Source: Bradyrhizobium guangxiense
Lineage (GTDB): Bacteria; Pseudomonadota; Alphaproteobacteria; Rhizobiales; Xanthobacteraceae
DNA length: 64,000 bases
Assembly (NCBI RefSeq): GCF_004114915.1
Contig: NZ_CP022219.1
Span: 2,386,501 to 2,450,500 of the forward strand
Reading direction: 5' to 3'
The notes under the pieces are model-generated. The model did no database searches. It was given only the letters and a program-made list of their open reading frames with translations, and had not been told where the DNA came from. Of the stretch, positions 34,549 through 61,489 are shown one piece after another; positions within the stretch are counted from its first letter, which is position 1; every line of letters begins with the position of its first letter. Both the position numbers and the translations under genes were made by a program.

Positions 34549-34949
34549 GAGCGAGGAATTTGTTCCAGACTATGTGTGGCCGCCGCTGCACAAACGGTTA
34601 AACGCCGGGCGCGCCCGCTCCGTTAAATCTGCGGTAATTCGGTCGGGAGCTTTGTCGCAAATGCAAAATATTGGGTCGAAACGCCAGGAAAATACGGCAT
34701 TTCGAGGCGATTTAGGCGAGGCGGCCTTAAGGAAGAGTTTACCATCCGGGCAAGCTGACCTCAGTCCCAATGACCCAACGCGAGCAGCCGAGGAGCCATT
34801 CGCAACGAGAGGGCCGGTTGATTTGTTGACGGGACCTAATCATTTGTACATTAGTACAAATGAAATCATAACCAATGCTGCCGCGCAGGGGCGCGCGTCG
34901 TTGTGCCCCAATGGCCCCGTCGGTCAGCAGCCGAGTCCCGGAGGAAATC
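34549..34949. other. Gene-free promoter region between the HerA-like ATPase and the dioxygenase
   Basis: The 401 bases contain no credible coding frame. The left part is AT-richer than its surroundings and presumably holds the HerA promoter. The right part carries the promoter and operator described at 34826-34862. Confidence 0.5.
34826..34862 (+). promoter_or_regulatory. Promoter with TetR-type operator for the extradiol dioxygenase
   Basis: TTGACG (34826-34831) is a good -35 box. The operator CATTTGTAC-ATTA-GTACAAATG (34841-34862) has perfect 9-base arms and covers the -10 position. The same arrangement recurs in front of the tetR gene (58363-58399), where a 45-base comparison from TTGTTGAC onward shows the same order of blocks: TTGACG, ACCT, TTTGTAC-N4-GTACAAA. 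Binding of that TetR here is an inference from the shared site. Confidence 0.7.
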
Positions 34950-36046: not shown

Positions 36047-39000
36047 TTAGTGGGCTGAACTCCGCACGCGTGCGATCGTCTCGCGCACGCCGGTCCAGGC
36101 CGCCTTGCCGGGTGCGAACTGCCTACGCAGGAAGTTGACGAGCTCCTCGACCTGCGCGTCGCTCATGCTGTTCCTGAACGCCGGCATATAGCCGAGATCG
36201 CTCGACACTGGCTCGGCGATGCCGTGCAGGATCACCTGCACGAGATTATCCGATGTCTCACTGTGCAGATTGCTGTTGAGCGCGAGCGAGGGGCGGCTGC
36301 CGAATAGCGGCAGGGCGCCGACCTCGTGGCAGACCGCGCAGGCGCCCTGGTAGAGGCGGGCGCCGGTCGAGGAGGCGACGGTGACTTGCGTCGCGCTCTC
36401 GAGCTTCGCGGCGAGTGCGTCCTGCGGCGCAATCGGCGCGTCGTTGAACGCGTTGAGATAGATCGCCATCGCACGAATGTCCTGGTCGGGCAGGGCCTTG
36501 AGGTCCCTGACGACAGGCGCCATGGGGCCGGCCGCGACGCCGTGATAGCGGGAATGTCCGGTGCGCAAATAGGCGAACAGCTCGTCCTCGTTCCACGGGA
36601 TCGGTGCGCGCGAGAGCGAGGTCAACGCCGGTGCTTCCCAGCCTTCGGCAAAGCCGCCGGCAAGATAGCTTTCGCGCTGCTCGGCGCCGAGCGCGTTGCG
36701 CGGCGAATGGCAAGCGCTGCAATGGCCGAGGCTCTCGACCAGATAAGCGCCGCGATTCCAGGCCTCGGACTTTGCGGGATCGGGCTTGAACTCCTTGGTT
36801 TGATGGAACAGTGCGTTCCAGCCTGCCAGCAGCGGGCGCAGATTGAACGGGAAGGCGAGCGTGTTGGCGGGGGTCGTCGCGCGCACCGCGGGCTGCGCCA
36901 TCAGGTAAGCATAGAGCGCTTGCAGATCGGCGTCGCTGGTCTTTGAAAAATGCGTGTAGGGGAAGGCGGGATAGAGCGGCCGTCCGTCGCGATGCAGTCC
37001 GTCGCGCATGGCGCGTTCGAAGGCGGGGTAGGACCAGGCTCCGATGCCGGTCTCGACATCGGGTGTGATGTTGGTGCTGTGGATCGTGCCGAACGGCGTT
37101 TCCAGCGCACGCCCGCCGGCATTGAGCGCGCCGCCAAGCTTGGTATGGCACTCCGCGCAATTGCCGAGCGCCGCGAGCTGCGCGCCGCGGGCGATCGTCG
37201 CCGCGGAATAGACCGACGCGTCGGGCCGTGCGATCGGCGCAATCGCGCGGCCAGGAAGCACCGCGGCGCCGACGCCGATGGCGGCCGTGCAGACGGCCGC
37301 AATCGTCGCGAAGATGCCGGCGCGCTTGGTGAATGGATTTGCCCAGATGCGAGATGGCGGCGATGCTGCCGGCGCGGGCAGCGCCTGCGGCCTTACCGCT
37401 GCATCGCCGTGCAACCCTTTCAGGATGCGCTCCGGCGTGAACGGCGGCTCGCGAAAGCGCACGCCGGTGGCATCGAAGATCGCATTGGCAATCGCGGCTG
37501 CGCTCGGCACGGACGCGGACTCGCCGACGCCGAGCGGCGGCTGATCCTGCCGCGGCAGCATCAGCACGTCGATCTTGGGCACGTCCGGGAAGGGGATGAT
37601 CGGATAGGCGCCCCATTCGCGCGCCGCCACCGCGCCGCGCTCGAACGAGACCTCCTCCATCAGTGCGCGGCTGGTGGACTGGATGACATTGCCGTGGATC
37701 TGGTGGCGCACGCCGTCCGGGTTGATCATCAGTCCGGAATCCTGCCCTGCGACCACGCGGGTCACGCTGACGTCGCCGGTCGTCTTGTTCACGGCAACGT
37801 CGGTGACCCAGGCCGACCACGCCGCGCCGTAGCCGGGAAACTTGCTGTGGACGTAAAGAGCATAGGCAAAGCCGCGGCCGTGCACGACCTCGCCGTCCTT
37901 CTCCTCGCGCACGGGGCGTGGTTTCCACCCCGCGCGTTCGGCGACCGCGTTGACGAGATCGACGGCGCGCGGGTCTTTCAGATAGCGCAGGCGGTACTCG
38001 ATCGGATCGACGCCGGCCTCGGTTGCGGCCTCGTCGATGTAGGATTCGTGCGCAAAGGTGTTCGGCAGGGCCGAGACGCCGCGAAACCAGGAGGCGCGCA
38101 CGATCGGCGGCATGTCGTGGGCGACGACGCGCATGTTGTCGTAGTCATAGGGCGGGATCGCGGTGCGGTCGCCCATCTGCAGCACGGCCGGCTCCGGTGC
38201 GATGCGGCCGGTCAGCAGCAGCGCCAGCGTCGGCGCGCCATTCGACGGATAGCGCGTGGCGAGATCGTAACCGGCGATGCCGCCGTGGGCATCGAGCCCG
38301 CCATCGACGTCGATGAGCTGCGCGGTGCCCTTGGGCTCCCAGGCATGCTCCTGCTCGCGCGTCAGCTGCACGCGCACGGGCCGGCGGACCGCGCGCGACA
38401 GCAGCAGTGCGTCGGCCGTGACGTCGTCGGCGCAGTTGCGGCCATAGCAGCCGGCGGCCTCCAGCCGGATGATCTCGATCTCGCTCTCGGGTCGCTCGAT
38501 CAGGAGCGCTAGATCGCTGCGCAGCACGTGCGGATTCTGTGTGCCCGACCAGACCCTGACATTGCCGTCCTGAAAATCCGCCACGGCGCAGGACGGGCCG
38601 ATCGAGGCGTGCATCTGATACGGCCACACGTAAGTACGCTGCATCGGCTTGGCCGCACCGGCGATCGCCGCGCCGACATCGCCCTTGTCGATCAGCGTGC
38701 GCGGTGTCGACGGATTGGCGCGCAGCGCGGTCTCGACGTCGGAAAGATCGGTCAATGTCGGCGTCGGCTTCCAGCTCACCTTGAGCTGCTCCGCCGCGCG
38801 GATCGCGTTCTCCTCGCGGTCGGCAACGATGCCGACGAAATCGCCGAGGCGCACGACGGCCATGATGCCGGGGATATCGCGCACCGAGGACTCGTCGACG
38901 GCAATCAGGCTGGTGCCGACGAACGGGCCGGCGTCGACGCCGGCATAGGGTGGACGCACCACGCGGCCGTGCAGCATGCCGGGCACGCGGACGTCGTGCA

Positions 39001-39571
39001 CGAAGGTCAGCTCGCCCGTGGCCTTGGCGGGCAGGTCGACGCGGGGCGTCGACTGGCCGACGATGGAGTAGTCGCCGACAGGCTTCACGGTGACGTCATC
39101 GGCAAGCTCGAGCCGGATCGCTTCGCCGCCGATCAGTTCGCCGTAGCTGACGCTGCGGTTGTCGCGACCGCGAACGAGGCCGTCTTCTACCCGGAGATCG
39201 GCGGCCGGCACTTCGAGTCGCTCGGCCGCGCGCGCGATCAGGAAGTGACGTGCCTGCGCCGCGGCCTTGCGCAAGGGCACGGCGGTGATCTGGATGGTCT
39301 CGCTCGCGATCGTCGCGCCCTGGTTCGGCACCAAGGCGGTGTCGCCAAGCACCACGACGACGCGCGCAAAGGACACGTCCAGCTCTTCGGCGACGATCTG
39401 GCCGAGCGCCGTGCGAATGCCGGTGCCGAGATCGACGTGGCCGTTATAGGCCGTGACCGATCCGTCCGCGGTGATCCGCACGAAGGTCTCGGATGTGACC
39501 TCGTCCACGGTGCGGGCGACGACGAGCGAACCGGATGGATGCTCAGCTCCGTTCGAAACAGGGGAGGCCAT
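36047..39571 (-). CDS. Nicotinate dehydrogenase-like molybdenum subunit fused to tri-haem cytochrome c (NicB-like)
   Basis: A 1174-residue large subunit of the xanthine oxidase family. Residues 1 to about 740 are the molybdopterin-binding part (VDLGTGIRTALGQIVAEEL, RDIPGIMAVVRLGD, AAGCYGRNCADDVTADA, VGESASVPSAAAIANAIF). A membrane helix (GIFATIAAVCTAAIGVGAAV, about 745-770) follows. The C-terminal part has three c-type haem sites: CAECH near 804, CSACH near 951 and CAVCH near 1077. This matches the NicB architecture of Pseudomonas nicotinate hydroxylase, which passes electrons to cytochrome c instead of NAD. The start overlaps the stop of the iron-sulfur subunit (ATGA). Another N-heterocycle or aldehyde substrate cannot be excluded. 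Confidence 0.85.
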   Translation of the reverse strand: MASPVSNGAEHPSGSLVVARTVDEVTSETFVRITADGSVTAYNGHVDLGTGIRTALGQIVAEELDVSFARVVVVLGDTALVPNQGATIASETIQITAVPLRKAAAQARHFLIARAAERLEVPAADLRVEDGLVRGRDNRSVSYGELIGGEAIRLELADDVTVKPVGDYSIVGQSTPRVDLPAKATGELTFVHDVRVPGMLHGRVVRPPYAGVDAGPFVGTSLIAVDESSVRDIPGIMAVVRLGDFVGIVADREENAIRAAEQLKVSWKPTPTLTDLSDVETALRANPSTPRTLIDKGDVGAAIAGAAKPMQRTYVWPYQMHASIGPSCAVADFQDGNVRVWSGTQNPHVLRSDLALLIERPESEIEIIRLEAAGCYGRNCADDVTADALLLSRAVRRPVRVQLTREQEHAWEPKGTAQLIDVDGGLDAHGGIAGYDLATRYPSNGAPTLALLLTGRIAPEPAVLQMGDRTAIPPYDYDNMRVVAHDMPPIVRASWFRGVSALPNTFAHESYIDEAATEAGVDPIEYRLRYLKDPRAVDLVNAVAERAGWKPRPVREEKDGEVVHGRGFAYALYVHSKFPGYGAAWSAWVTDVAVNKTTGDVSVTRVVAGQDSGLMINPDGVRHQIHGNVIQSTSRALMEEVSFERGAVAAREWGAYPIIPFPDVPKIDVLMLPRQDQPPLGVGESASVPSAAAIANAIFDATGVRFREPPFTPERILKGLHGDAAVRPQALPAPAASPPSRIWANPFTKRAGIFATIAAVCTAAIGVGAAVLPGRAIAPIARPDASVYSAATIARGAQLAALGNCAECHTKLGGALNAGGRALETPFGTIHSTNITPDVETGIGAWSYPAFERAMRDGLHRDGRPLYPAFPYTHFSKTSDADLQALYAYLMAQPAVRATTPANTLAFPFNLRPLLAGWNALFHQTKEFKPDPAKSEAWNRGAYLVESLGHCSACHSPRNALGAEQRESYLAGGFAEGWEAPALTSLSRAPIPWNEDELFAYLRTGHSRYHGVAAGPMAPVVRDLKALPDQDIRAMAIYLNAFNDAPIAPQDALAAKLESATQVTVASSTGARLYQGACAVCHEVGALPLFGSRPSLALNSNLHSETSDNLVQVILHGIAEPVSSDLGYMPAFRNSMSDAQVEELVNFLRRQFAPGKAAWTGVRETIARVRSSAH

Positions 39572-40053
39572 CAATCTGCGGCCTCGGTGAGCTGGCCGGA
39601 GGCGCGCATCACGGCGCGCAGGATTTCGACATGGGTGCCGCAGCGGCAGAGATTGTAGCGCAGCGCCGCCAGCGCCTCCTGCTCGGTCGGCCGCGGGTTG
39701 ATCGCGAGCAATGCCTTGGTGGTCATGATCATGCCGTTGAGACAGTAGCCGCATTGCGCGGCCTGCTCGTCAATGAAGGCCTGCTGCACGACATCAGGCT
39801 TGTCGCGCGTGCCGAGCCCCTCGAGCGTCACGATGTCGCGGCCAGCGCAGCCGCCGACGGGAATCACGCAGGAGCGCGCCGCTGTGCCGTCGATCAGGAC
39901 CGTGCAGGTGCCGCATTCGCCGAGGCCGCAACCATATTTCGGGCCGTTGAGTGCGAGATCGTTGCGTAGCACGTAGAGCAGCGGCGTCTCTGGCGCCGCC
40001 GCGACCTCGATGATCCTGCCGTTCACGGTGAGGCGGATCGGTGTCTGCGTCAT
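39571..40053 (-). CDS. Nicotinate dehydrogenase-like 2x[2Fe-2S] subunit (NicA-like)
   Basis: A 160-residue small subunit. The N-terminal plant-type cluster is bound by Cys in YGCGLGECGTCTVLIDG plus the later SC. The C-terminal cluster is bound by the CGYC and CRCG pairs (AQCGYCLNGMIM, NLCRCGTHVEI). It relays electrons from the molybdenum centre to the haem domain of the large subunit. An upstream ATG at 40059 is equally possible. The promoter region is shared with the divergent hydroxynicotinate reductase gene and holds a palindrome about 54 bases upstream. Confidence 0.9.
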   Translation of the reverse strand: MTQTPIRLTVNGRIIEVAAAPETPLLYVLRNDLALNGPKYGCGLGECGTCTVLIDGTAARSCVIPVGGCAGRDIVTLEGLGTRDKPDVVQQAFIDEQAAQCGYCLNGMIMTTKALLAINPRPTEQEALAALRYNLCRCGTHVEILRAVMRASGQLTEAAD

Positions 40054-40106
40054 CCTCATTCTCAAGCCTGCGGCAAATTGCTGCCAAGTTTCGATTGCGA
40101 CGATAC

Positions 40107-40122
40107 CGTTTGTACACAAACG
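40107..40122. promoter_or_regulatory. Palindrome CGTTTGT-AC-ACAAACG before the nicAB-like operon
   Basis: Perfect 7-base arms around a 2-base centre, 54 bases upstream of the nicA-like start. The core TTTGTACACAAA fits TTNGTRYACNAA, the pattern also found in front of the reductase (40263-40274) and the enamidase (49943-49954). It is a probable operator of the MarR-family regulator encoded at 48.1 kb. Confidence 0.6.
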
Positions 40123-40230
40123 TGCAAGCCGTGCATGCCGCACTGCAGCGCGGCTGCCTGCTTTGTGGACAGGGTGGATAGGCAAATGAGGTTTTATGCG
40201 GCAGCCGCGCCTTTTGCGCTGCACCGCCGC

Positions 40231-40278
40231 TTGACAGCGCCAGGGGAGCGCGCGCAACATCGTTCGTGTACGAATGAT
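40231..40278 (+). promoter_or_regulatory. Promoter and operator of the hydroxynicotinate reductase operon
   Basis: TTGACA (40231-40236) is a consensus -35 box. Eighteen bases on, CAACAT (40255-40260) is a weak -10. The operator ATCGTTCGTGTACGAATGAT (40259-40278) overlaps the expected transcription start and is palindromic at 16 of 20 positions. Fifteen of 18 bases match the site at 49940-49957. Confidence 0.6.
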
Positions 40279-40286
40279 AACCGCAA

Positions 40287-41762
40287 ATGTCCGCTGGCTC
40301 CGACATGGTGACTGAAACGACGAGCGCTGTCATCGACAAGATCCGCTGCGATGCTTGTCCGGTGATGTGCTACATCAAGCCGGGCGCGGCGGGGGCCTGC
40401 GATCGCTACGCCAACCACGACGGCAAGCTCGTCCGCGTCGATCCGCACGTGATCCTGGAACGCACCGTCTCGCATGGCGGCAAGCTGGTCCCGTTCAGCC
40501 GCACGGAAGATTGGGACGGCAAGATCGTCCACGAACCCTCGACCTTCGTCACGGCGATCGGCGCGGGTACGACCTATCCCGATTACAAGCCGGCGCCGTT
40601 CATCGTCTCCGCGGAGGTTGACGGCGTCGACATGGTGACTGTGGTCACCGAGGGCATTTTCTCCTATTGCGGCGTCAAGGTGAAGATCGACACCGACCGC
40701 TATCTCGGCCCGGAGACCGCGACCGTTCGCGCGCAGGGCGAAGCCGTGGGACACGTCACCACGAGCGAATATGGCTCCCAGATGCTGTCGCTGGGCGGCG
40801 TGCATCACCTGACTGGCGGCTCCAAGAAAGAGGGTCGCGTCACCTGCGACACACTGATGGACCTCGCCAATTGCAAGGCGGTCGAGCTCACCATCGACGG
40901 CGGGGCCGCGGTGGTAGTGCAGGCCGGTCAGCCGCCGATCGTCAACGGCGTGAGGGAAGAGCGCATGCGCGTCGGCTGCGGCTCGGCGACGATCGGCATG
41001 TTCGCCAAGCAATGGCACGGCAAGGTCGACGAGGTCGTCGTGGTCGACGACCACATCACCGGCGTGCTGAGCGAGCACCAGGCCGGCAAGCTGCTCGACA
41101 TCGCCGACACCGGCATCAAGATGAAGGGCCGCCGGTCGACGCCCGGGCGCTATTTCCAGGTCGCCGATCCCGGCACGGGTTGGGGCGGCACCAACATCTC
41201 CGATCCCTTGTCGATCCTCGGGCCGTTCGATGCCAAGGAAGCAAAGCCCGGTCTGACCATGCTGATGGTTTCCACCACCGGGGAACATTCGTCCTATTAC
41301 GTGCTGGACGAGGCCTTGAAGCCGGTCGAGACCGAGATGCCTGCCGACCTGAAGTTCTCGGTCGAGCGCATCCAGGAGAATTGCGAGCCGGCGCTGTGCA
41401 CGGTGCTGTTCATGGCGGGCGCCGGCGGCTCCTTGCGCGCCGGCGTCACCGACAATCCGGTGCGGCTGACGCGCTCGGTGAAGGACGCGCTGACGCGCGT
41501 CACCAGCGGCGGTGCGCCGGTCTATGTCTGGCCCGGCGGCGGCATCACCTACATGGTCGATGTCACGCAGATGCCGGCGGGCGCGTTCGGCTATGTGCCG
41601 ACGCCGGCGCTGGTCGCGCCGATCGAATTTACGATGAAGCTGTCCGACTACGCCGCGCTCGGCGGACACATGGATTATGTGAAGCCGCTTTCCGAGGTGC
41701 AGAACGGCGAGGATGTTCGCCAGCTGCCTTGGCAGAATCCGATTCCGGGGCCGCGGGCATGA
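40287..41762 (+). CDS. 6-hydroxynicotinate reductase-like iron-sulfur flavoprotein
   Basis: A 491-residue protein resembling the 6-hydroxynicotinate reductase of Eubacterium barkeri, which uses reduced ferredoxin to convert 6-hydroxynicotinate to 1,4,5,6-tetrahydro-6-oxonicotinate. An N-terminal four-cysteine motif (C21-x2-C24-x3-C28-x9-C38) can bind a [4Fe-4S] cluster. Six more cysteines occur at 128, 187, 196, 231, 366 and 371. The E. barkeri enzyme carries covalently bound flavin; a weak flavin-transfer-like motif DDHITGV is at 254-260. Context supports the name: a NicAB-like hydroxylase diverges from it and an enamidase lies downstream. ATG 40305 is an alternative start. Confidence 0.75.
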   Translation: MSAGSDMVTETTSAVIDKIRCDACPVMCYIKPGAAGACDRYANHDGKLVRVDPHVILERTVSHGGKLVPFSRTEDWDGKIVHEPSTFVTAIGAGTTYPDYKPAPFIVSAEVDGVDMVTVVTEGIFSYCGVKVKIDTDRYLGPETATVRAQGEAVGHVTTSEYGSQMLSLGGVHHLTGGSKKEGRVTCDTLMDLANCKAVELTIDGGAAVVVQAGQPPIVNGVREERMRVGCGSATIGMFAKQWHGKVDEVVVVDDHITGVLSEHQAGKLLDIADTGIKMKGRRSTPGRYFQVADPGTGWGGTNISDPLSILGPFDAKEAKPGLTMLMVSTTGEHSSYYVLDEALKPVETEMPADLKFSVERIQENCEPALCTVLFMAGAGGSLRAGVTDNPVRLTRSVKDALTRVTSGGAPVYVWPGGGITYMVDVTQMPAGAFGYVPTPALVAPIEFTMKLSDYAALGGHMDYVKPLSEVQNGEDVRQLPWQNPIPGPRA

Positions 41763-42655
41763 CGAGGATCCCGCAAATCGCATTGCTGTCAGATGGCCGG
41801 CGGCTGCATTTGCAGGATGGACCGATCGATCTGATCATTGAGGCGAAGGGGCGCGTGGACGCGGTTCATGCGGCCTATGAGGCTGCGGCGCGGCGCTTCA
41901 CGGGCCTGCTCGACGAGCTCTGCGCGGAGCTGCCGACGCTGCGCGCTGCTGCCGAGGCGCGGACCTCCCTGAAGGGCGTGGTGGCGCGCCGGATGCACGC
42001 CGCAGTCGCGCCCTTTGCTGCTGATGGCTTCATCACGCCGATGGCTGCTGTTGCCGGCAGTGTGGCGGAGGAGATTCTCGGCGCCATGTTGGGCGCTGCG
42101 GGCCTTGATCGGGCCTATGTCAACAATGGCGGCGACATTGCCGTTCATCTGGGCAGAGGCGAGCATTTTTCGATTGGCCTGATGGATCGCCCCGATCGTG
42201 ACGGCGTCATGCGAGCCATGCGGGTCGATGCGGATGACCAGGTCGGGGGCGTCGCGACCAGCGGGCGCCACGGCCGCAGCTTTTCGCTCGGGATTGCCGA
42301 CGCGGTCACGGTGTTGGCCGCGACGGCTTCACAGGCCGACGCCGCGGCGACGGTCATCGCCAACGCCGTCGATCTGCCGGGGCATCCCGCCATCGCCAGG
42401 CAGCCGGCCTGCGAGCTTCAGCCCGACAGCGATCTCGGCGCACGTCTCGTCACCCGACATGTCGGTGAACTGTCACAGAATGAGATCGCCGCCGCCCTCG
42501 AATCTGGCGCGGAATGTGCACGTCAATTGTTCGATCGCGGCTTGATCGAGGGGGCCGTATTGCAGCTTTGTGGTGATATGCTTGTCATCGGACCCAAGGA
42601 TATAGAACAGCAAAGAACGCGTCCGCGTCTGCCGGAGAACGCGGTCTGTGCCTGA
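41759..42655 (+). CDS. UPF0280-family (ApbE-like superfamily) protein
   Basis: A 298-residue protein of the UPF0280 family, recognised from VNNGGDIAVHLGRGEHFSIGL, GGVATSGRHGRSFSLGIADAVTVLA and ADAAATVIANAVD. By recollection the family shares its fold with ApbE, the flavin transferase. Those segments parallel ApbE's N-x-G-G-D and A-T-S-G blocks. The ATG overlaps the reductase stop (ATGA), so the two are made together. Since the homologous reductase has a covalent flavin, a maturation role is a plausible inference. No signal peptide is present, so it acts in the cytoplasm. Confidence 0.8.
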   Translation: MTRIPQIALLSDGRRLHLQDGPIDLIIEAKGRVDAVHAAYEAAARRFTGLLDELCAELPTLRAAAEARTSLKGVVARRMHAAVAPFAADGFITPMAAVAGSVAEEILGAMLGAAGLDRAYVNNGGDIAVHLGRGEHFSIGLMDRPDRDGVMRAMRVDADDQVGGVATSGRHGRSFSLGIADAVTVLAATASQADAAATVIANAVDLPGHPAIARQPACELQPDSDLGARLVTRHVGELSQNEIAAALESGAECARQLFDRGLIEGAVLQLCGDMLVIGPKDIEQQRTRPRLPENAVCA

Positions 42656-42670
42656 ACAGGGAAGCGAAAC

Positions 42671-43255
42671 ATGAGCGCGATCATCCGCAAGATCGTCACC
42701 GTCGTCGAAGAGACGCAGATGGAGATGGGCCGCCAGGTCTCGCCGCCGACCCGGCGCGCGGCGGCGATCGCCGTGATCGAAAATCCCTTCGCCGGAAGGT
42801 ATGTCGAGGATCTCTCGCCGCTGATCGCGATCGGCGAAGAGCTGGGCGAACTCTTGGCGAAGCGCGCCGTGGCTGCGCTCGGCGTCGATGGCGCCAAGGC
42901 GCAGAGCTACGGCAAGGCCGCGGCCGTCGGCGAGAACGGCGAGCTGGAACACGCCGCCGCGATCCTTCACCCCAAGATGGGCGCGCCGGTGCGCAAGGTT
43001 CTGACCAAGGGCGCGGCGCTGATCCCATCGTCGAAGAAACGCAGCGGGCCCGGGACGACGCTCGACATTCCGCTCGGCCACAAGGACGCTGCCTTCGTGC
43101 GCAGCCATTTCGACGGCATGGAAGTTCAGATCAATGACGCGCCGCGCGCCAACGAGATCATGGTCGCCGTCGCCGTCACCGACAGCGGACGTCCTTTGCC
43201 GCGCGTCGGCGGGCTCACGGTTGCGGAAGTGAAGGGCGAGGACGGTCTGAGATAG
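42671..43255 (+). CDS. DUF1185 ("amino acid synthesis") family protein
   Basis: A 194-residue protein of the PF06684 family. The marks are IRKIVTVVEETQMEMG at the start, AAIAVIENPFAGRYVEDLSPLI, GENGELEHAAAILHPKMGAPVRKVL and NDAPRANEIMVAVAVTDSGRPLPRVGG. The biochemical role of the family is not established despite its name. It lies 15 bases after the UPF0280 gene, in the same operon as the hydroxynicotinate reductase. A step in ring processing, or a cofactor role, is possible. Confidence 0.82.
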   Translation: MSAIIRKIVTVVEETQMEMGRQVSPPTRRAAAIAVIENPFAGRYVEDLSPLIAIGEELGELLAKRAVAALGVDGAKAQSYGKAAAVGENGELEHAAAILHPKMGAPVRKVLTKGAALIPSSKKRSGPGTTLDIPLGHKDAAFVRSHFDGMEVQINDAPRANEIMVAVAVTDSGRPLPRVGGLTVAEVKGEDGLR

Positions 43256-43335
43256 GGTTTGAGCCGGGGAGGCGGGCACAGCTTCTCCGACAAGGTCACG
43301 CTGAAGACGTCAAGAGTTCAAAACTGGAGGTTGGG

Positions 43336-44538
43336 ATGCGAGCGAGAAACTATTTTGTGGGCGCGGCCTTCGCGCTTCTGGCAGGCGGCATGGCTCATTC
43401 GGCTCTGGCGCAAGACATCAAGATCGGCGAGATCAACAGCTATTCGCTGCTGCCGGCCTTCACCGAGCCCTATCGCAAGGGCTGGCAGCTCGCCGTCGAG
43501 GAGGTCAACGCGGCCGGCGGCATCAACGGCAAGAAGCTCGTCGTCATCTCCAAGGACGACGGCGGCAAGCCGGCGGACGCGCAGACCGCGGCCAATGAGC
43601 TCGTCTCGAGCGAGGGCGTTGCGATGCTCGCGGGCACGTTCCTGTCCAATATCGGTCTTGCGGTCAGCGACTTCGCCAACCAGAAGAAGGTGTTCTTCCT
43701 CGCGGCCGAGCCGCTGACGGACGCGATCACGTGGTCCAAAGGCAACAAATACACCTTCCGCCTGCGTCCCTCCAACTACATGCAGGCGGCGATGCTGGTG
43801 GAGGCTGCTGCCAAGCTGCCGGCCAAGCGCTGGGCGACGATCGCGCCGAACTATGAATACGGCCAGTCGGCGGTCGCGGTGTTCAAGAAGCTGATGTCGG
43901 AGAAGCGTCCGGACATCCAGTGGGTCGACGAGCAGTGGCCGCCGCAAGGCAAGATCGACGCCGGCCCGGTGGTGCAGGCCGTCGCCGCCGCCAATCCCGA
44001 GGCCATCCTCAACGTCACCTTCGGTGCCGACCTCGTCAAGCTCGTGCGCGAAGGCAACACCCGCGGCCTGTTCAAGGGACGCGAGGTCGTCTCGTTCCTG
44101 ACCGGCGAGCCCGAATATCTCGATCCGCTCAAGGACGAGACGCCGGAGGGCTGGATCGTCACGGGCTATCCCTGGTACTCGATCAAGACGCCCGAGCATG
44201 ACGCCTTCCTGAAGGCCTATCAGGCCAAGTACAACGACTATCCGCGCCTCGGCTCGATCGTCGGCTACCAGACCATCAAGTCGGCGGCTGCGATCCTCGC
44301 CAAGGCTGGCACGAGCGATCCGGAGAAGCTGATCGCGGCGGCAGAAGGTCTCTCGGTGCCGTCGCCGTTCGGGGAGATCACCTTCCGCAAGATCGACCAC
44401 CAGTCGACCCTCGGTGCCTTCGTCGGCAAGACCGCGCTGAAGGACGGCAAGGGCGTGATGGTGGACTCGTCCTACAAGAAGGGCTCCGACTATCTGCCTG
44501 GCGATGCCGAAGTCGAGAAGCTGCGCCCGAAGGATTGA
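43336..44538 (+). CDS. Branched-chain-amino-acid-type ABC transporter substrate-binding protein
   Basis: A 400-residue periplasmic LivJ/LivK-like protein. The signal peptide ends after ALA (MAHSALAQDIKIGEIN). The Venus-flytrap fold shows KGWQLAVEEVNAAGGINGKKL and VVISKDDGGKPADAQTAANELV. GGAGG precedes the ATG. In this island it may bind an aromatic or N-heterocyclic acid rather than an amino acid, since members of the family often serve catabolic clusters; this is inference. The permease and ATPases follow after a repeat. Confidence 0.88.
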   Translation: MRARNYFVGAAFALLAGGMAHSALAQDIKIGEINSYSLLPAFTEPYRKGWQLAVEEVNAAGGINGKKLVVISKDDGGKPADAQTAANELVSSEGVAMLAGTFLSNIGLAVSDFANQKKVFFLAAEPLTDAITWSKGNKYTFRLRPSNYMQAAMLVEAAAKLPAKRWATIAPNYEYGQSAVAVFKKLMSEKRPDIQWVDEQWPPQGKIDAGPVVQAVAAANPEAILNVTFGADLVKLVREGNTRGLFKGREVVSFLTGEPEYLDPLKDETPEGWIVTGYPWYSIKTPEHDAFLKAYQAKYNDYPRLGSIVGYQTIKSAAAILAKAGTSDPEKLIAAAEGLSVPSPFGEITFRKIDHQSTLGAFVGKTALKDGKGVMVDSSYKKGSDYLPGDAEVEKLRPKD

Positions 44539-44549
44539 GGGCTCGCTGC

Positions 44550-44663
44550 CGTAGGGTGGGTTAGCCCTGCTGATGCGCAAAGCGCATCTGGGGGGCGCAA
44601 CCCACCGCTTTCGGCGCCACGCGAGAAAAGGCGGTGGGTTACGCTTCGCTAACCCACCCTACG
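44550..44663. repeat. Inverted repeat of the GTAGGGTGGGTTAGC family
   Basis: CGTAGGGTGGGTTAGC (44550-44565) and its exact complement GCTAACCCACCCTACG (44648-44663) flank internal GCGCAACCCACCGC and GCGGTGGGTTACGC, which also pair. It is a typical miniature palindromic element and sits inside the ABC-transporter operon, between the binding-protein and permease genes. Confidence 0.85.
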
Positions 44664-44694
44664 ATTTCTGAGACTTAACGAACCCGGACCGCCG

Positions 44695-46584
44695 ATGGCC
44701 TTTTATGTCGTACAGTTTCTGACCGGTCTCGCCAGCGCAGCGTCGCTGTTCCTGGTGGCCTCGGGCCTGTCGATCATCTTCGGCGTGACGCGGATCGTGA
44801 ATTTCGCGCATGGCGCCTTCTACATGATCGGCGCCTATATCGCTTTCACGCTGACCGAACGCCTGTCGGGCGCGTTCGGCTTCTGGGGCAGCATCGTGCT
44901 GGCCGCGCTCGCGGTGGCGCTGATCGGCGTCATCGTCGAAATGGTGCTGCTCCGGCGCATCTACCATGCGCCCGAGCTGTTCCAGCTGCTCGCGACCTTC
45001 GGCCTGACCTTGATGGTCGAGGATCTCGTCGTGCTGGTCTGGGGGCCTGACGATCTCGTCGGCCGCCGCGCGCCGGGCTTCAAGGGCGCCATCGATTTCT
45101 TCGGCCAGAACATCCCGAGCTACGATCTATTCCTGATCGTGCTCGGACCGGTCGTGCTCGGCATTCTCTGGCTGCTGTTCCAGCGCACGCGCTGGGGCGT
45201 GCTGGTGCGTGCGGCAACGCAGGACCGCGACATGGTCGCAGCCCTGGGCGTCAATCAAAAATGGCTGTTCACATCGGTGTTCGCCGTCGGCGTCTTCCTC
45301 GCCGCGCTCGGCGGGGCGCTCCAGATCCCGCGCGATGCCGTGCATCACGCCATGGACCTGCGCATCATCGTCGAGGTCTTCGTCGTCGTCGTGATCGGCG
45401 GCCTCGGCAGCATCATCGGCGCCTTCGTCGCGGCGGTGCTGGTCTCCGAGCTCAACGCCTTCGGCATCCTGATCTTCCCGAAGATCTCCATCATCCTGGT
45501 CTTCCTGGTGATGGCGGTGGTGCTGATCGTGCGGCCCTGGGGCCTGTTCGGCAAGCCGGAGGCGCCCGCGCGCAAGACGCCGGGGCTCACCGTCAATCCG
45601 TGGCGGCCCTTGACGTCCAACGAGCGGATGGCCGCGCTTGCGGCGCTGATCGTCGCGGCGATGCTGCCGCTGTTCGCCGGCAATTACGCGCTGACCGTCG
45701 GCTCGGAGATCGCGATCTTCGTGATCTTCGCCGTCAGCCTGCACTTCCTGATGTCTGTCGGCGGGCTCGCCTCGTTCGGCCATGCCGCATATTTCGGCCT
45801 TGGCGCGTATGGCATCGCCTTCCTTGCCAAGATGGCGGGGCTGCCGATGATCGTCTGCCTGCTGCTCGGTCCGCTGCTCGGCTGCATGGGGGCCGCCGTG
45901 TTCGGCTTCTTCGCGGTCCAGCTTTCCGGTGTCTACTTCGCGATGCTGACGTTGGCGTTCGCTCAAATCGTCTGGTCGATCGCCTTCCAATGGGTGAGCG
46001 TCACCGGCGGCGACAACGGCATACTGGGCGTGTGGCCGTCGAGCTGGGCGGCCAGCCCGTCGCATTTCTATTGGCTGGCGCTCGGCGTTGCGGCGCTGGT
46101 GACGATCGCGCTGCGGGCCATGGTGTTCTCGCCATTCGGCTATGCGCTCAGGGCCACGCGCGACTCGCTTCTGCGCAGCGAGGCGATCGGCATCGATGCC
46201 AAACGCATCCAGTGGACGGCCTTCGTGATCGCCGGCACGACCGCCGGCATCGGTGGTGCGCTGTTCGCCTACCTCAAGGGCAGCGTCTTTCCCGATAATC
46301 TCGGCATCTCGTTGTCGGTCGACGCGCTCGTCATGGTACTCCTCGGCGGCGTCGAGACGGTCTCCGGCGCGGTGATCGGCGCCATCGTCTACAAGGCGCT
46401 CAACATCTGGCTGGTCAGCCAGACCGATCTGTCGAAGCTCGTGCTCGGCGGCTTCATCGTGCTGATCGTTGTGGTCTTTCCCAAGGGCATCGTCGGCATG
46501 CTGGAAATGCTGGCGCAGCGCCGCCGGAAATCCTCTCCGCCGGGATCCCCCTTGCTTGCAAAGCCGATCGAGTCCGCCGAATGA
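44695..46584 (+). CDS. Fused branched-chain-type ABC permease (LivH-LivM)
   Basis: A 629-residue protein joining both permease halves. Residues 1 to about 290 are LivH-like (ASGLSIIFGVTRIVNFAHGAFYMIGAYIAF with the NFAHG motif). After a linker near residue 300 comes a LivM-like half (SVGGLASFGHAAYFGLGAYG, GVYFAMLTLAFAQ, GIGGALFAYLKG, ETVSGAVIGAIVYKAL). The fusion would fix a 1:1 assembly of the transmembrane pair. It overlaps the ATPase gene by 4 bases at its end. Confidence 0.92.
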   Translation: MAFYVVQFLTGLASAASLFLVASGLSIIFGVTRIVNFAHGAFYMIGAYIAFTLTERLSGAFGFWGSIVLAALAVALIGVIVEMVLLRRIYHAPELFQLLATFGLTLMVEDLVVLVWGPDDLVGRRAPGFKGAIDFFGQNIPSYDLFLIVLGPVVLGILWLLFQRTRWGVLVRAATQDRDMVAALGVNQKWLFTSVFAVGVFLAALGGALQIPRDAVHHAMDLRIIVEVFVVVVIGGLGSIIGAFVAAVLVSELNAFGILIFPKISIILVFLVMAVVLIVRPWGLFGKPEAPARKTPGLTVNPWRPLTSNERMAALAALIVAAMLPLFAGNYALTVGSEIAIFVIFAVSLHFLMSVGGLASFGHAAYFGLGAYGIAFLAKMAGLPMIVCLLLGPLLGCMGAAVFGFFAVQLSGVYFAMLTLAFAQIVWSIAFQWVSVTGGDNGILGVWPSSWAASPSHFYWLALGVAALVTIALRAMVFSPFGYALRATRDSLLRSEAIGIDAKRIQWTAFVIAGTTAGIGGALFAYLKGSVFPDNLGISLSVDALVMVLLGGVETVSGAVIGAIVYKALNIWLVSQTDLSKLVLGGFIVLIVVVFPKGIVGMLEMLAQRRRKSSPPGSPLLAKPIESAE

Positions 46585-47372
46585 GCGTTGCGCCCACACT
46601 TCTCGCAGTCGAAGGCCTGACCAAATCCTATGGCGGCATCCACGCCGTGCGCGGGGTGTCGTTCTCGCTGCGCGCCGGCGAGATCCTGGCGCTGATCGGG
46701 CCGAACGGCGCGGGCAAGAGCACCTGCTTCGACATGCTGAACGGCCAGAACAAGCCCGACTCCGGTCATGTGCGCTTGTCGGGTGAGGAGACCACCGGCA
46801 AGAAGCCGCGTGAGATCTGGCGCATGGGCGTCGGACGGACCTTCCAGATCACCGCGACCTTCGCCACCATGACCGTGCGCGAGAACGTGCAAGTCGCGCT
46901 GATCTCGTACGGCAAGCAGCTGTTCAATCTGTTCGGCTCGGCGCCGAAGTTCGACCGCGACGAGGCCGGCCGGCTGCTCGAGCTGGTCGGCATGGGCGGC
47001 TATGCCGATCGCCCCTGCGGCGAGCTCGCCTATGGCGACCTCAAGCGGCTCGAGCTTGCGGTCGCGCTCGCCAACCAGCCGAAGCTGTTGCTGATGGACG
47101 AGCCGACCGCCGGCATGGCGCCGCGCGAGCGGGTCGATCTGATGCGGCTCACCGCGCAAATCGCGCGCGAGAAATCGATCGGCGTGCTCTTCACCGAGCA
47201 CGACATGGACGTTGTGTTCGAGCATGCCGACCGCATCATCGTGCTCAACCGCGGCACGCTGATCGCCGAAGGCACGCCGGCCGAGGTGCGCGGCAATCCG
47301 CAGGTGCAGGCGGTCTATCTCGGCGAAGGCCTTGTCTACGATGCCCGCCATCGCGAGGGAGCATCGTTGTGA
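46581..47372 (+). CDS. ABC transporter ATP-binding protein, LivG type
   Basis: A 263-residue ATPase. Walker A is GPNGAGKST, the signature-like loop is [17 protein letters not shown] (LivG-type, with YGD in place of SGG), and Walker B is [15 protein letters not shown]. The LivG-specific [20 protein letters not shown] is present. It overlaps the permease gene at its start (ATGA) and the LivF gene at its end (GTGA). Confidence 0.93.
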
Positions 47373-48073
47373 AGCTGACTGTCGAGGGCCTCAACAGCCA
47401 TTACGGCCCGGCGCATATCCTGTTCGACATCGGCTTCGAGGTCGGCGAGGGCGAGGTGGTGGCGCTGCTCGGCCGCAATGGTGCCGGCAAGTCGACCACG
47501 TTCCGTTCGATTGTCGGTCTCGTCGCCCAGCGGACCGGACGCATCATGTTCGAAGGCAAGGACGTCTCGGCAAGGCCGACGCACGAGATCGTCCGCGAAG
47601 GGCTCGGCTACGTGCCGGAGGAACGGCGAATCTTCACCGACCTGACGGTGGAGGAGAATCTCGAGGTTGGCCGCCAGCCGAAGCGTCCGAACGCCCCGCA
47701 CTGGACCCGTGAGAAGCTGTTCACGCTGTTTCCAAATCTCGGCGAGATGAAGAACCGTCCGGGCGGCCGCATGAGCGGTGGCGAGCAGCAGATGCTCACC
47801 ATTGCCCGCACGCTGATGGGCAATCCGTCGCTGGTGCTGCTCGACGAGCCCTCGGAAGGCCTGTCGCCGAAGATCGTGGAGCAAATGGTCGAGGCCATCC
47901 TGACCATGAAGAAAGAGGGCGTCAGCATCGTCGTCTCCGAGCAGAATCTGCATTTCGCACGGCTCATCTCTGATCGCGCCTACATCATCGAGCGCGGCCG
48001 CATCTGCTTTGGCGGCACCATGGTCGAGCTGGACGCGCGTCCTGATATCCGCGACGCGCATCTGTCGTTGTGA
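47369..48073 (+). CDS. ABC transporter ATP-binding protein, LivF type
   Basis: A 234-residue ATPase. Walker A is GRNGAGKST, the LivF-typical GYVPEERRIFTDLTVEENL is present, the signature is MSGGEQQMLTIARTL, and Walker B is LVLLDEPSEGLSPK. The start is GTG, overlapping the LivG stop. The stop overlaps the GTG of the MarR gene, so regulator and transporter are translationally coupled. Confidence 0.93.
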   Translation: MKLTVEGLNSHYGPAHILFDIGFEVGEGEVVALLGRNGAGKSTTFRSIVGLVAQRTGRIMFEGKDVSARPTHEIVREGLGYVPEERRIFTDLTVEENLEVGRQPKRPNAPHWTREKLFTLFPNLGEMKNRPGGRMSGGEQQMLTIARTLMGNPSLVLLDEPSEGLSPKIVEQMVEAILTMKKEGVSIVVSEQNLHFARLISDRAYIIERGRICFGGTMVELDARPDIRDAHLSL

Positions 48074-48555
48074 AGGCGAAGGGAAGGGACGGCGAGCGGA
48101 TGGCGAGAAGCGTTGCGGCCAGGAAAGGCGTCAAACCGGGGAAACCGGCTTACGTGCTCGACGAGCAGGTCGGCTTCATCCTGCGTCAGGTCTGGCAGCG
48201 CCACAGCTCGATCTTCGCCCGCGATATCGGCACCAACTTGACGCCGACGCAATGGGCAGCGCTGTCGAAGCTCGCCGAGACCGGGCCGTGCTCGCAGAAC
48301 CAGCTCGGGCGTCTGACCGCGATGGACGTCGCGACCATCAAGGGCGTGATCGACCGCCTGACGGCGCGGGGGCTGACCGAGACCAGCCAGGATCCGGAGG
48401 ACGGACGGCGCCTGCTGGTGAGCCTGACGCGCGCCGGTCAGCAGCTTGCGGAGAAGGTTGCCCCGAATGCGCTCGCCGTCACCCGTGAGACGCTGGCGCC
48501 GCTGGACGCCAAGGAGCGCGAGATGCTGATGGCGTTGTTGAACAAGCTGCGGTGA
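48070..48555 (+). CDS. MarR-family transcriptional regulator (candidate regulator of the N-heterocycle island)
   Basis: A 161-residue winged-helix protein. The recognition segment CSQNQLGRLTAMDVATIKGVIDRL and wing DPEDGRRLLVSLTRAGQQL are typical of MarR. GTG 48070 overlaps the LivF stop; ATG 48100 is an alternative. In Pseudomonas the nicotinate genes are controlled by the MarR protein NicR, which senses 6-hydroxynicotinate. The related palindromes at 40.1, 40.3 and 49.9 kb fit the size of a MarR dimer site. Control of the island by this protein is inferred from those facts. Confidence 0.87.
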   Translation: MKAKGRDGERMARSVAARKGVKPGKPAYVLDEQVGFILRQVWQRHSSIFARDIGTNLTPTQWAALSKLAETGPCSQNQLGRLTAMDVATIKGVIDRLTARGLTETSQDPEDGRRLLVSLTRAGQQLAEKVAPNALAVTRETLAPLDAKEREMLMALLNKLR

Positions 48556-48563
48556 TGCGCCCT

Positions 48564-48656
48564 GTCATCCGGGGCACGCGCATCGCGCGTGAACCCGGAA
48601 TCCAGAGGTCGTTGCGCGAGATTCCGGCTTCGCGCTCACGCGCGCCCCGGAATGAC
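48564..48656. repeat. Nested inverted repeat, GTCATTCCGGGGC family, copy 4
   Basis: GTCATCCGGGGC at the left pairs with GCCCCGGAATGAC at the right apart from one unpaired base. An inner AACCCGGAATC and GATTCCGGCTT pair imperfectly. It lies between the convergent marR and enamidase genes. Confidence 0.75.
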
Positions 48657-48667
48657 GGCAAGTGCCG

Positions 48668-49864
48668 TCACTTCGCCACCACCTCGGGCACCTTGCCGGC
48701 CGGGGGCGTATTGCGGCTGCGCTGGGTGCGCACGATGCCGTCGATGATGGTCATGCCGATGCCGGGGAGGTCGCCGAGCTGCACGCTCTCCAGGATGTTC
48801 TTGCCCGGCGAGTGCTGCGCCTTGTCCATGATGACGAAATCGGCGGAACGGCCGACTTCGATCAGGCCGCAATCGAGCTGGCGCATCCGCGCGGTGTTGC
48901 CGGTGGCGAGGCAGAACGCGATTTCGGCCGGCAGCTCGCCGAGCGAGGACAGCATCGAGACCATGCGCAGGATGCCAAGCGGCTGCACGCCGGAGCCGGC
49001 GGGCGCATCGGTGCCGAGGATGACGCGGTGCAGATCGCCCATCTCGCGCGCGGTGCGCAGCGTGAACAGCGCGGAGCGCTCATTGCCGTTGTGCACGAGC
49101 TCGAGCCCGCGCTTGCAGCCCTCACAGATGCAGCGGATTTGGTCGTCGGGCAGAGCGGTGTGGCCGCCATTGATGTGGCCGATGACGTCGGTGTCGGCCT
49201 CCAGCACCACGTCCTTGTCGATCAGGCCGGAGCCGGGGATCGAGGGGCCGCCGGTGTGGATCGTGCTCTGGATGCCGTATTTGCGCGCCCAGCCCACCAT
49301 CTTGCGCGCGGTCGGGCCGTCCTTGACGCCGCCGAGGCCGACCTCGCCGAGCAGCTTGACGCCGTTCGCCGCCATCTCCTTGAAGTCTTCTTCCACCATC
49401 TCGCATTCGATCACCGGCGCGCCGGCGTGAACCTTCACCCCGCCCGGACGCAGCGTCCAGAACGCGCGCTGGGCGAACACCGCCATCGCCTTGAGGCCGA
49501 CGACGTCGCGGGGGCGGCCGGGCATGTGCACTTCGCCGGCGGAGATCATGGTGGTGACGCCGCCATGGAGATAGCTGTCGATCCAGTTGATCTGGTTCTG
49601 GCGCGGCGTCCAGTCGCCGGCGACGGGGTGGACGTGGCTGTCGATCAGGCCCGGCGCGACCGTGGTGCCGTTGGCATCGACGATCGTGGTCGCGCCTTCG
49701 ATGTCGACGTCCTTGAAGCGGCCGATCGCGGTGATCTTGCCGTTCTCGGCGACGATGGTGTCGCCGTCCAGGATCGGCTTTTCCAAAGCGCCGGACAGGA
49801 TCAGGCCGATATTGCGGATCACGAGCTTCGAGGGTCCGGCGGCCTGGGGGGCGTCATGCGCCAT
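48668..49864 (-). CDS. Enamidase-like amidohydrolase (6-oxo-1,4,5,6-tetrahydronicotinate hydrolase)
   Basis: A 398-residue metal-dependent amidohydrolase. It resembles E. barkeri enamidase along its length, by recollection: RNIGLILSG at the start, GLIDSHVHPVAGDWTPRQ, HGGVTTMISAGEVHMPGRP, GEVGLGG, HTGGPSIPGSG, GHINGGHTALP, GTDAPAGSG and the end GDLPGIGMTIIDG / RNTPPAGK. Metal ligands are His77, His79, Glu174, His203, His230 and Asp286. Enamidase opens the ring of tetrahydro-oxonicotinate to 2-formylglutarate and ammonia. It is transcribed towards marR, from a promoter region holding the shared palindrome. Confidence 0.85.
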   Translation of the reverse strand: MAHDAPQAAGPSKLVIRNIGLILSGALEKPILDGDTIVAENGKITAIGRFKDVDIEGATTIVDANGTTVAPGLIDSHVHPVAGDWTPRQNQINWIDSYLHGGVTTMISAGEVHMPGRPRDVVGLKAMAVFAQRAFWTLRPGGVKVHAGAPVIECEMVEEDFKEMAANGVKLLGEVGLGGVKDGPTARKMVGWARKYGIQSTIHTGGPSIPGSGLIDKDVVLEADTDVIGHINGGHTALPDDQIRCICEGCKRGLELVHNGNERSALFTLRTAREMGDLHRVILGTDAPAGSGVQPLGILRMVSMLSSLGELPAEIAFCLATGNTARMRQLDCGLIEVGRSADFVIMDKAQHSPGKNILESVQLGDLPGIGMTIIDGIVRTQRSRNTPPAGKVPEVVAK

Positions 49865-49939
49865 GGAAGGGGCTCCTTATTCCTAACTGCAAGGCTTTCG
49901 ATCTTGGGCAGCCTTGACCGCGGGATCAAGCAGGATTAT

Positions 49940-49968
49940 TCATTAGTATACGAATGATCGTGTACTAA
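49940..49968. promoter_or_regulatory. Operator-like palindromes between enamidase and ferredoxin reductase genes
   Basis: TCATTAGTATACGAATGA (49940-49957) is palindromic at 16 of 18 positions. It is followed directly by a related ATCGTGTACTAA (49957-49968) that matches the core at 40263-40274 at 10 of 12 positions. The pair lies 76 bases upstream of the enamidase and about 55 bases upstream of the reductase gene, so it could control both divergent units. Confidence 0.6.
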
Positions 49969-50022
49969 CGACGCATAGCTGGACCGCCTCGAAAACCGCA
50001 ATGACGCGACAGGGAAGGTGAG

Positions 50023-50796
50023 ATGAGCAATTTCAATCAGGAAAGCGTTTTGAGCGTCCACCACTGGACCGACACGCTGTTCTCCTTCAAGACCACCCGC
50101 AGCCCGACCTTCCGCTTCCGCAACGGCGAATTCACCATGATCGGACTCAAGGTCGGCGAGAAGCCGCTGCTGCGGGCCTATAGCGTCGCCAGCGCCAATT
50201 ACGAGGACACGCTGGAGTTCTTCTCGATCAAGGTGCCGGACGGCCCGCTGACCTCACGCCTGCAGCACTTGAAGGAAGGCGACGAGATCATCGTCAGCCG
50301 CAAGGCCACCGGCACTCTCGTGATCGACAATCTCGAGGAGGGGCGCAATCTCTACCTGATCGGCACTGGCACCGGTCTGGCGCCGTTCCTGAGCGTCATC
50401 AAGGACCCCGAGACCTACGAGCGCTTCGAGAAGGTGGTGCTGCTGCACGGCTGCCGGCATGTGAAGGAGCTCGCCTATGGCGAGATGATCACCGAGCATC
50501 TGCCGAAGGACGAGCTGCTGGGCGAATACATCCGAGGTCAGCTGATCTACTACCCGACCGTGACCCGCGATCCCTTCCGCAACCGCGGCCGCATCACCGA
50601 CCTCATCACCTCGGGCAAGCTGTTCGCCGATATCGGCCTGCCGGCGCTGGAAGCCGCCCATGACCGCGTCATGATCTGCGGCAGCCCGGCGCTGGTGGCG
50701 GACACCCGCGTGCTCCTGGGGGAGCGGGGCTTTGCCGAAGGCAATCACGGTGAGCCGGCCCAGTTCGTGGTCGAAAAGGCCTTTGCCGAGCGCTGA
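50023..50796 (+). CDS. fpr: Ferredoxin--NADP+ reductase (bacterial Fpr type)
   Basis: A 257-residue flavoenzyme. The FAD-binding motif is LLRAYSVASANYEDTLEFFSIKVPDGPLTSRL (RxYS and the GxLTSxL block), the NADP motif is IGTGTGLAPFLSV, and the protein ends in VVEKAFAER, typical of alphaproteobacterial Fpr. It exchanges electrons between NADPH and ferredoxin. It may be a general enzyme, but sharing a promoter region and operator with the enamidase gene suggests it supplies reduced ferredoxin to the hydroxynicotinate reductase; that is inference. Confidence 0.93.
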   Translation: MSNFNQESVLSVHHWTDTLFSFKTTRSPTFRFRNGEFTMIGLKVGEKPLLRAYSVASANYEDTLEFFSIKVPDGPLTSRLQHLKEGDEIIVSRKATGTLVIDNLEEGRNLYLIGTGTGLAPFLSVIKDPETYERFEKVVLLHGCRHVKELAYGEMITEHLPKDELLGEYIRGQLIYYPTVTRDPFRNRGRITDLITSGKLFADIGLPALEAAHDRVMICGSPALVADTRVLLGERGFAEGNHGEPAQFVVEKAFAER

Positions 50797-59112: not shown

Positions 59113-59144
59113 AAGAAGCGGCCTCGCTTTCGGTAGTTCACCTG

Positions 59145-60029: not shown

Positions 60030-60081
60030 CAACGATGGCAATCGATACAAAGTCAACGAACGAAAGAGGGGAGTTCGTCCC

Positions 60082-61475: not shown

Positions 61476-61489
61476 GGCGGAGCGGGCGG

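Follow-up and report, generated by a model that had tools for sequence, protein, structure and literature searches.

We analyzed a 64,000-nucleotide stretch of the 8.2-Mb genome of Bradyrhizobium guangxiense (contig NZ_CP022219.1, positions 2,386,501 to 2,450,500; hereafter the window) and propose that an island of genes at window positions 36047 to 50796 allows this bacterium to use nicotinate by a reductive route. A NicAB-like hydroxylase, a 6-hydroxynicotinate reductase (Hnr), and an enamidase would act in turn on the pyridine ring, and two proteins of unexplained families, UPF0280 (COG2122) and AA_synth (PF06684/DUF1185), would serve the reductase and the enamidase, respectively. We give this reading as a whole, with its route, its path for electrons, and its roles for the two partners, a probability of roughly 0.8. 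Our observations concern gene content, homology, linkage, co-occurrence, and folds, and from them we infer every reaction, the electron path, and the two partner roles.

The reductive route was first described in an anaerobe, and the island is already known as a cluster. An earlier reading of the window, made without database searches (the sequence-only reading), had pointed out this assembly. It cannot be regarded as unreported, since a 2012 paper describes it in four rhizobial or Bradyrhizobiaceae genomes, namely, Azorhizobium caulinodans, Bradyrhizobium japonicum USDA110 (blr3818-3830), Rhodopseudomonas palustris HaA2, and strain SG-6C (PMC3511419). What is new here is the linkage of the UPF0280 and AA_synth families, together with a domain difference in Hnr described below; a literature search that took in few subscription papers returned no published report of either.

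The island encodes homologs of a reductive nicotinate pathway

The combination that the sequence-only reading had named, a NicAB-like hydroxylase with haem c next to Hnr-like and enamidase-like proteins, is present in full (Table 1), and a check of open reading frame (ORF) boundaries found every named gene intact. Several neighboring genes overlap by 1 to 4 bases, as in an operon. Within the genus, 96 of the 98 genomes that were sampled have Hnr, and the closest named relatives of the island Hnr are from Bradyrhizobium. Thus, the island is not a chance cluster, and Hnr belongs to the normal equipment of the genus.

Searches against characterized proteins bore out the assignments of Hnr and enamidase, and they did so less well for NicB, as discussed below. 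The island Hnr is 41.7% identical over 456 amino acids to the Hnr of the Eubacterium barkeri VPI 5359 locus (L103); a value of 42% has been published for a homolog (PMC3511419). For the enamidase, the best PDB chain was 2vun, titled "ENAMIDASE" (E = 5e-109, residues 12-394), the sole PDB sequence below 1e-50. The genome of E. barkeri VPI 5359 contains the 2vun sequence at 100% identity, and the island protein is 45.7% identical to that enzyme.

In Pfam scans, the NicB-like subunit showed molybdopterin-binding domains in permuted order plus cytochrome c domains, with three CxxCH haem c sites at residues 807, 953, and 1080 (numbered in a reading longer by 2 residues), while the NicA-like subunit showed two 2Fe-2S domains (PF01799 and PF00111). 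This is the NicAB architecture, a small 2Fe-2S subunit and a large molybdenum (Mo) subunit with three haem c, and it stands in place of the NdhFSLM-type Mo nicotinate hydroxylase of the E. barkeri pathway, which was not found in the island. Stretches of NicB matched nicotinate dehydrogenase subunits (3hrd; E. barkeri locus) among other Mo hydroxylases.

We propose the following course for the pathway. The importer would take up nicotinate, and NicAB would convert it to 6-hydroxynicotinate, with the electrons reaching the respiratory chain by way of the 2Fe-2S centers and then haem c. Hnr, as judged by its homology, would reduce the 6-hydroxynicotinate ring to 1,4,5,6-tetrahydro-6-oxonicotinate, which the enamidase would open to 2-formylglutarate and NH3; the published glutarate route, whose genes we did not locate here (no search of the genome was aimed at them), would then follow. 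The same sequence of intermediates in a respiring bacterium was advanced in the sequence-only reading. Homology supports it, as do published data from related strains: SG-6C grows on nicotinate and on 6-hydroxynicotinate, metabolite data are given, and its later steps were placed via glutarate, as in the Azorhizobium route (PMC3511419). The fate of 2-formylglutarate, which the sequence-only reading had left open, is therefore still open with respect to genes but not with respect to a published route.

The genes nicC, nicX, nicD, and nicF were not seen among the window ORFs, with no scan aimed at them and no genome-wide search. A search of the window's own genome for 2-methyleneglutarate mutase, using an E. 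barkeri ORF that we take to encode this enzyme, gave no full match and one 100-residue partial match of 29 bits; other later enzymes were not searched for. On a Sulfitobacter plasmid (L161:1096-7794), genes for a ligase, a hydratase, a 3-hydroxyacyl-coenzyme A (CoA) dehydrogenase, and an ACAD11-like protein lie beside the enamidase gene and may represent later steps. We considered the acyl-CoA dehydrogenase near this Sulfitobacter island as a glutaryl-CoA dehydrogenase and rejected it as ACAD11-like.

Alphaproteobacterial Hnr lacks the fused ferredoxin domain

The island Hnr carries the cluster motif CxxCx3Cx9C (C21/C24/C28/C38). All four cysteines are kept in 58/58 aligned sequences, as are two further cysteines, C231 and C366, and the motif was found in 65 of 66 alphaproteobacterial Hnr frames. 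Neither Pfam nor NCBIfam models matched the protein at E ≤ 0.001, and no sequence in the PDB did so at E ≤ 1; a GCV_T_C match stayed below threshold (E = 0.019).

Profile scanning gave no Fer4 match in the island Hnr, and the N-terminal 2[4Fe-4S] domain, counted as a pair of CxxCxxCxxxC motifs, was present in 0/66 alphaproteobacterial frames versus 7/7 anaerobe-type frames (the seven examined from ten enamidase loci, L103 to L112). In E. barkeri Hnr, the N-terminal Fer4 domains were confirmed by profile match. The absence of this domain from alphaproteobacterial Hnr is a new result. Electrons would probably reach the island Hnr from NADPH through the island's Fpr-type reductase and a separate carrier, which would replace the fused ferredoxin domain of anaerobic Hnr. 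This Fpr is the third, divergent copy in the genome (other copies, 62-63%), and the divergent arrangement of the enamidase and fpr genes is also found on the Sulfitobacter plasmid. We regard this path as likely for the island and not as a general one.

UPF0280 occurs in the same genomes as Hnr

Among 385 alphaproteobacterial genomes, 68 contain Hnr, and UPF0280 (NF003322) was found in exactly these 68 and in 0 of the 317 others, once six weak matches in Hnr-less genomes (E from 4.6e-7 to 6.5e-4) had been set aside before counting. The protein scored over the NF003322 cutoff in 65/68, and the remaining three are pieces on broken contigs. Its gene adjoins hnr on the same strand in 67/68 genomes; in the last, hnr ends at a contig edge and UPF0280 opens another contig. 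A sample of 170 genomes across the phylum gave the same picture, with Hnr in 12 and UPF0280 in the same 12, 7 of which were outside the first sample. Other genes of the island are more loosely tied to Hnr: AA_synth is present in 59/68 and enamidase in 30/68 Hnr genomes. Ten enamidase loci (L103 to L112; nine Firmicutes-type by title and one Deltaproteobacterium metagenome-assembled genome [MAG]) contained Hnr in 10/10, UPF0280 in 9/10, and AA_synth in 9/10, the exception being L107, in which hnr is cut off near a contig end. The E. barkeri UPF0280 protein encoded next to hnr is 32% identical to the island protein and scores 180 bits with NF003322, under the cutoff of 290. One 764-residue chain (P0063) reads Hnr and UPF0280 together; it may be a frameshift and was not used.

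UPF0280 covers the whole ApbE fold, with Ser168 and Asp194 kept in 44/44 sequences and 25 residues between them in 43/44. We propose that it is an obligate partner of Hnr, serving as a maturation factor or a subunit. It may also act by way of a persulfide on Cys231 or Cys366 of Hnr.

AA_synth accompanies the enamidase

The island AA_synth protein matches PF06684 with 253.4 bits (cutoff, 27) and 2qtp with 297 bits, and it is 55% identical to its E. barkeri counterpart, whose gene directly follows the enamidase gene there. Counting enamidase only at E ≤ 1e-60, and dropping one AA_synth match below cutoff (G056) and a locus at 25% (L113), we found AA_synth in all 31 true-enamidase genomes of the 385 (69 to 100% identity), 30 of which also have Hnr. 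An AA_synth at least 65% identical to that of the island was present in 24 of the 68 Hnr loci, all from enamidase genomes, and in 0/38 loci from enamidase-less genomes. Of the other six enamidase genomes, five have it in another fetched locus (71 to 80% identity); the loci of the sixth were not fetched. Enamidase-like genes (36 to 43%) were located at 15 places; at 7 of these, an AA_synth gene lies no more than 1.5 kb away, and three of the 7 are in Hnr-less genomes. In L114, L115, and L116, from genomes without Hnr, AA_synth stands beside an enamidase-like amidohydrolase (about 40 to 43%).

The neighbors of AA_synth in Hnr-less genomes were counted within 6 kb in 20 loci, one from each of 20 of the 22 such genomes. 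They included alpha/beta hydrolase (13 loci), luciferase-like monooxygenase (9), aldehyde dehydrogenase (9), flavin reductase (6), and Rid protein (2), and none of these five types was seen in 67 Hnr loci; the queries were drawn from three of the 20 loci (L118, L123, and L131), which thus match themselves. Most of these enzyme types also belong to the Rut uracil pathway. Rut-like clusters in which AA_synth is joined by an alpha/beta hydrolase, a luciferase-like monooxygenase, and an aldehyde dehydrogenase were observed in L121 to L124 and L126 to L130, all from genomes without Hnr.

Hydrolysis of the ring amide yields an enamine before the aldehyde, so an enamine deaminase would fit AA_synth. 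We propose that AA_synth completes the enamidase step in this way, most likely by hydrolyzing the released enamine or imine. Residues R6, R108, R178, H94, and H146 are invariant in 99/99 sequences. The Bacillus chorismate mutase-like fold class also holds YjgF-like proteins. AA_synth has this fold and forms a hexamer (PMC2954203). The chemistry proposed here is that of the Rid/RutC enamine deaminases, RutC deaminating 3-aminoacrylate in the Rut uracil pathway (PMC8113886), yet AA_synth differs from Rid proteins in having no Pfam Rid match and in being a hexamer instead of a trimer (PMC2954203; PMC4433059).

Evidence against the proposal and alternative explanations

A number of observations weigh against our reading. 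In the PDB, the Mo domain of NicB is matched best by an aldehyde dehydrogenase chain (8gy3_C, 7e-55), with 3hrd_B weaker (1e-30), so the NicB substrate rests on context: its sequence does not by itself fix the substrate, and nicotinate is assigned from the surrounding genes. No metabolite after 6-hydroxynicotinate was detected in SG-6C (PMC3511419); thus, the reductive step in that strain also rests on genes. Of the 68 Hnr loci, only 4 include an fpr gene in the stretch that was fetched, some stretches being short. Co-occurrence may mirror joint transfer of an operon, and Fisher tests on the 385 genomes ignore kinship between them. AA_synth is absent from 9/68 Hnr genomes and present in 22/317 Hnr-less genomes, and it lies within 1.5 kb of the enamidase in just 14 of 31 places, the window being among the other 17. 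The Rut-like neighbors that were scanned fit other monooxygenase, reductase, and hydrolase NCBIfam models and not Rut models. Finally, the E. barkeri enamidase has been called bifunctional (PMC9304392) and may need no helper.

The chemistry of ApbE is also hard to transfer to UPF0280. ApbE flavin transferases use a Ser-His-Asp catalytic triad (PMC12052999). UPF0280 does not have all three of these residues: no histidine column is conserved above 35/44 and none is conserved between Ser168 and Asp194, with equivalent positions judged from sequence and not from superposition. Compared with the ApbE/FmnB/Ftp enzymes, its Ser-Asp spacing is shorter. Moreover, Hnr lacks the ApbE target motif DxxS/TGAS/T; in its VGCGSAT segment, the first position is V, I, or A in 58/58 sequences and never Asp. 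Plain flavin transfer by UPF0280 is therefore unlikely. With the ApbE motif absent and Ala in place of Thr235 in 10/58 sequences, we rejected flavinylation of Hnr at the GCGSAT threonine as a general mechanism.

Could the island act on a different pyridine or another N-heterocycle, with nicotinate as a side substrate? Relatives of Hnr do occur with varied hydroxylases: NicAB is found in only 2 of the 68 alphaproteobacterial Hnr loci plus one Neorhizobium plasmid, and 57/68 have a fused 2Fe-2S/Mo subunit instead. Their ring-opening enzymes also vary, with a hydantoinase/oxoprolinase-type hyuA (counted at ≥600 bits) in 21 loci, 30 loci from enamidase genomes, and 17 with neither, and the NicB match in PDB noted above points the same way. 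These classes do not overlap, and none of the 21 genomes with hyuA Hnr loci has a true enamidase. The island, however, has the enamidase variant and not the hyuAB variant, and the Bradyrhizobiaceae strain SG-6C, which has this cluster, fully degrades nicotinate and 6-hydroxynicotinate (PMC3511419). On balance, we consider a different main substrate improbable. Clusters of Hnr and UPF0280 with hyuAB were seen in L003, L004, L006, L040, L042, L043, L050, L057, L058, L092, L098, L099, and others; they are probably reductive pathways for other N-heterocycles.

The two partner roles have rivals of their own. UPF0280 might traffic sulfide or persulfide in sulfur assimilation, a role proposed for its COG2122 relatives, and be no more than a bystander in the operon: homocysteine synthesis in Desulfovibrio requires both COG2122 and DUF39, and there its fitness correlates with that of DUF39 at r = 0.98 (PMC5764234), and two of the three genomes with both Hnr and DUF39 have a second UPF0280 beside DUF39 (the copy in L159 being named by ORF reading). 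Yet E. barkeri has no DUF39 match and still has UPF0280 adjoining hnr, the DUF39-linked protein that was scanned fits another UPF0280 subfamily better (NF003323, 253 bits, versus NF003322, 69 bits, both under cutoff), and the pairing with Hnr in Alphaproteobacteria is perfect. A bystander role in sulfur assimilation thus seems to us a poor candidate next to partnership with Hnr. The DUF39 operons with their own UPF0280 are L158 and L159 (Acetobacterium bakii and a Bacillota MAG), which also have an Hnr-linked UPF0280. For AA_synth, a role in amino acid metabolism was inferred from its fold and from neighboring branched-chain amino acid transporter genes (PMC2954203). Many Hnr loci include such a transporter, however, and AA_synth occurs in each of the 31 enamidase genomes as well as in the fermentation cluster of E. 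barkeri; we hold that its work in amino acid metabolism, apart from this pathway, is very unlikely.

Comparison with known clusters and layout of the island

The published rhizobial cluster, from the same family or genus, shares with the island genes for the first three steps and for an ATP-binding cassette (ABC) transporter. It also has two conserved proteins of unknown function, which from gene content are most likely UPF0280 and AA_synth. No difference in kind was apparent; gene order was not compared record by record. The E. barkeri cluster has a homologous Mo nicotinate dehydrogenase, Hnr, UPF0280, enamidase, and AA_synth, but its dehydrogenase is split into four separate ORFs, its Hnr has the N-terminal 2[4Fe-4S] domain, and genes of the later fermentation are present. 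The nic pathway of Pseudomonas putida probably resembles the island in its NicAB-type, cytochrome-linked hydroxylase. In its maleamate route, the ring is oxidatively cleaved, whereas in our proposal it would be reduced and hydrolyzed.

Table 1. Genes of the island (window coordinates)
Feature	Position	Strand	Evidence or remark
NicB-like nicotinate hydroxylase large subunit	36047..39571	-	PF20256, PF02738, PF13442/PF00034; 3hrd_A/B and 8gy3 matches; 1174 aa
NicA-like 2Fe-2S subunit	39571..40053	-	PF01799, PF00111; TGATG overlap with nicB
Hnr, putative 6-hydroxynicotinate reductase	40287..41762	+	41.7% to E. barkeri Hnr
UPF0280/COG2122 protein, ApbE fold	41759..42655	+	ATGA overlap with hnr; proposed obligate Hnr partner
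AA_synth (PF06684/DUF1185)	42671..43255	+	PF06684, 253 bits; 2qtp, 297 bits; proposed enamine deaminase partner of enamidase
Liv-type ABC importer, whole	43336..48073	+	PF13458, PF02653, and ORF reading
Liv-type binding protein	43336-44538	+	
Liv-type fused permease	44695-46584	+	
Liv-type ATPases	46581-47372 and 47369-48073	+	Named from ORF translation, no profile scan
MarR-family regulator	48070..48555	+	PF01047
Enamidase	48668..49864	-	2vun, E = 5e-109; 45.7% to E. barkeri
Fpr-type ferredoxin/flavodoxin-NADP reductase	50023..50796	+	NF008178, 164.9 bits, below cutoff of 390; divergent from enamidase

By eye, the ORFs flanking the island at 34875-35918 and 51304-52575 resemble a VOC-type dioxygenase and a cytochrome P450, and those at 59109-63273 resemble an amidohydrolase, a PIG-L deacetylase, an aldolase, and a dehydrogenase of aromatic meta-cleavage.

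Implications for reductive N-heterocycle breakdown

A broader picture, which we offer tentatively and hold to be doubtful as a whole, is that UPF0280 may be a dedicated activator of reductive iron-sulfur enzymes, one paralog serving ring reductases of the Hnr type and another the DUF39 homocysteine enzyme on an ApbE scaffold without the histidine chemistry, and that PF06684 may be a second family of enamine/imine deaminases completing enamidase- and Rut-like ring openings. Together, the two families would mark a widespread, modular reductive breakdown of N-heterocycles in aerobes, with exchangeable hydroxylase and ring-opening enzyme. The functions of both unexplained families can now be tested in a pathway whose substrates are simple and easy to assay, using laboratory strains that are not pathogenic. 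Anaerobes also need COG2122 to make homocysteine, a role described as unsettled (PMC5764234), and a clean aerobic partner such as Hnr would help to settle it. Because 68 of 385 alphaproteobacterial genomes contain Hnr, reductive breakdown of N-heterocycles may be common in the class.

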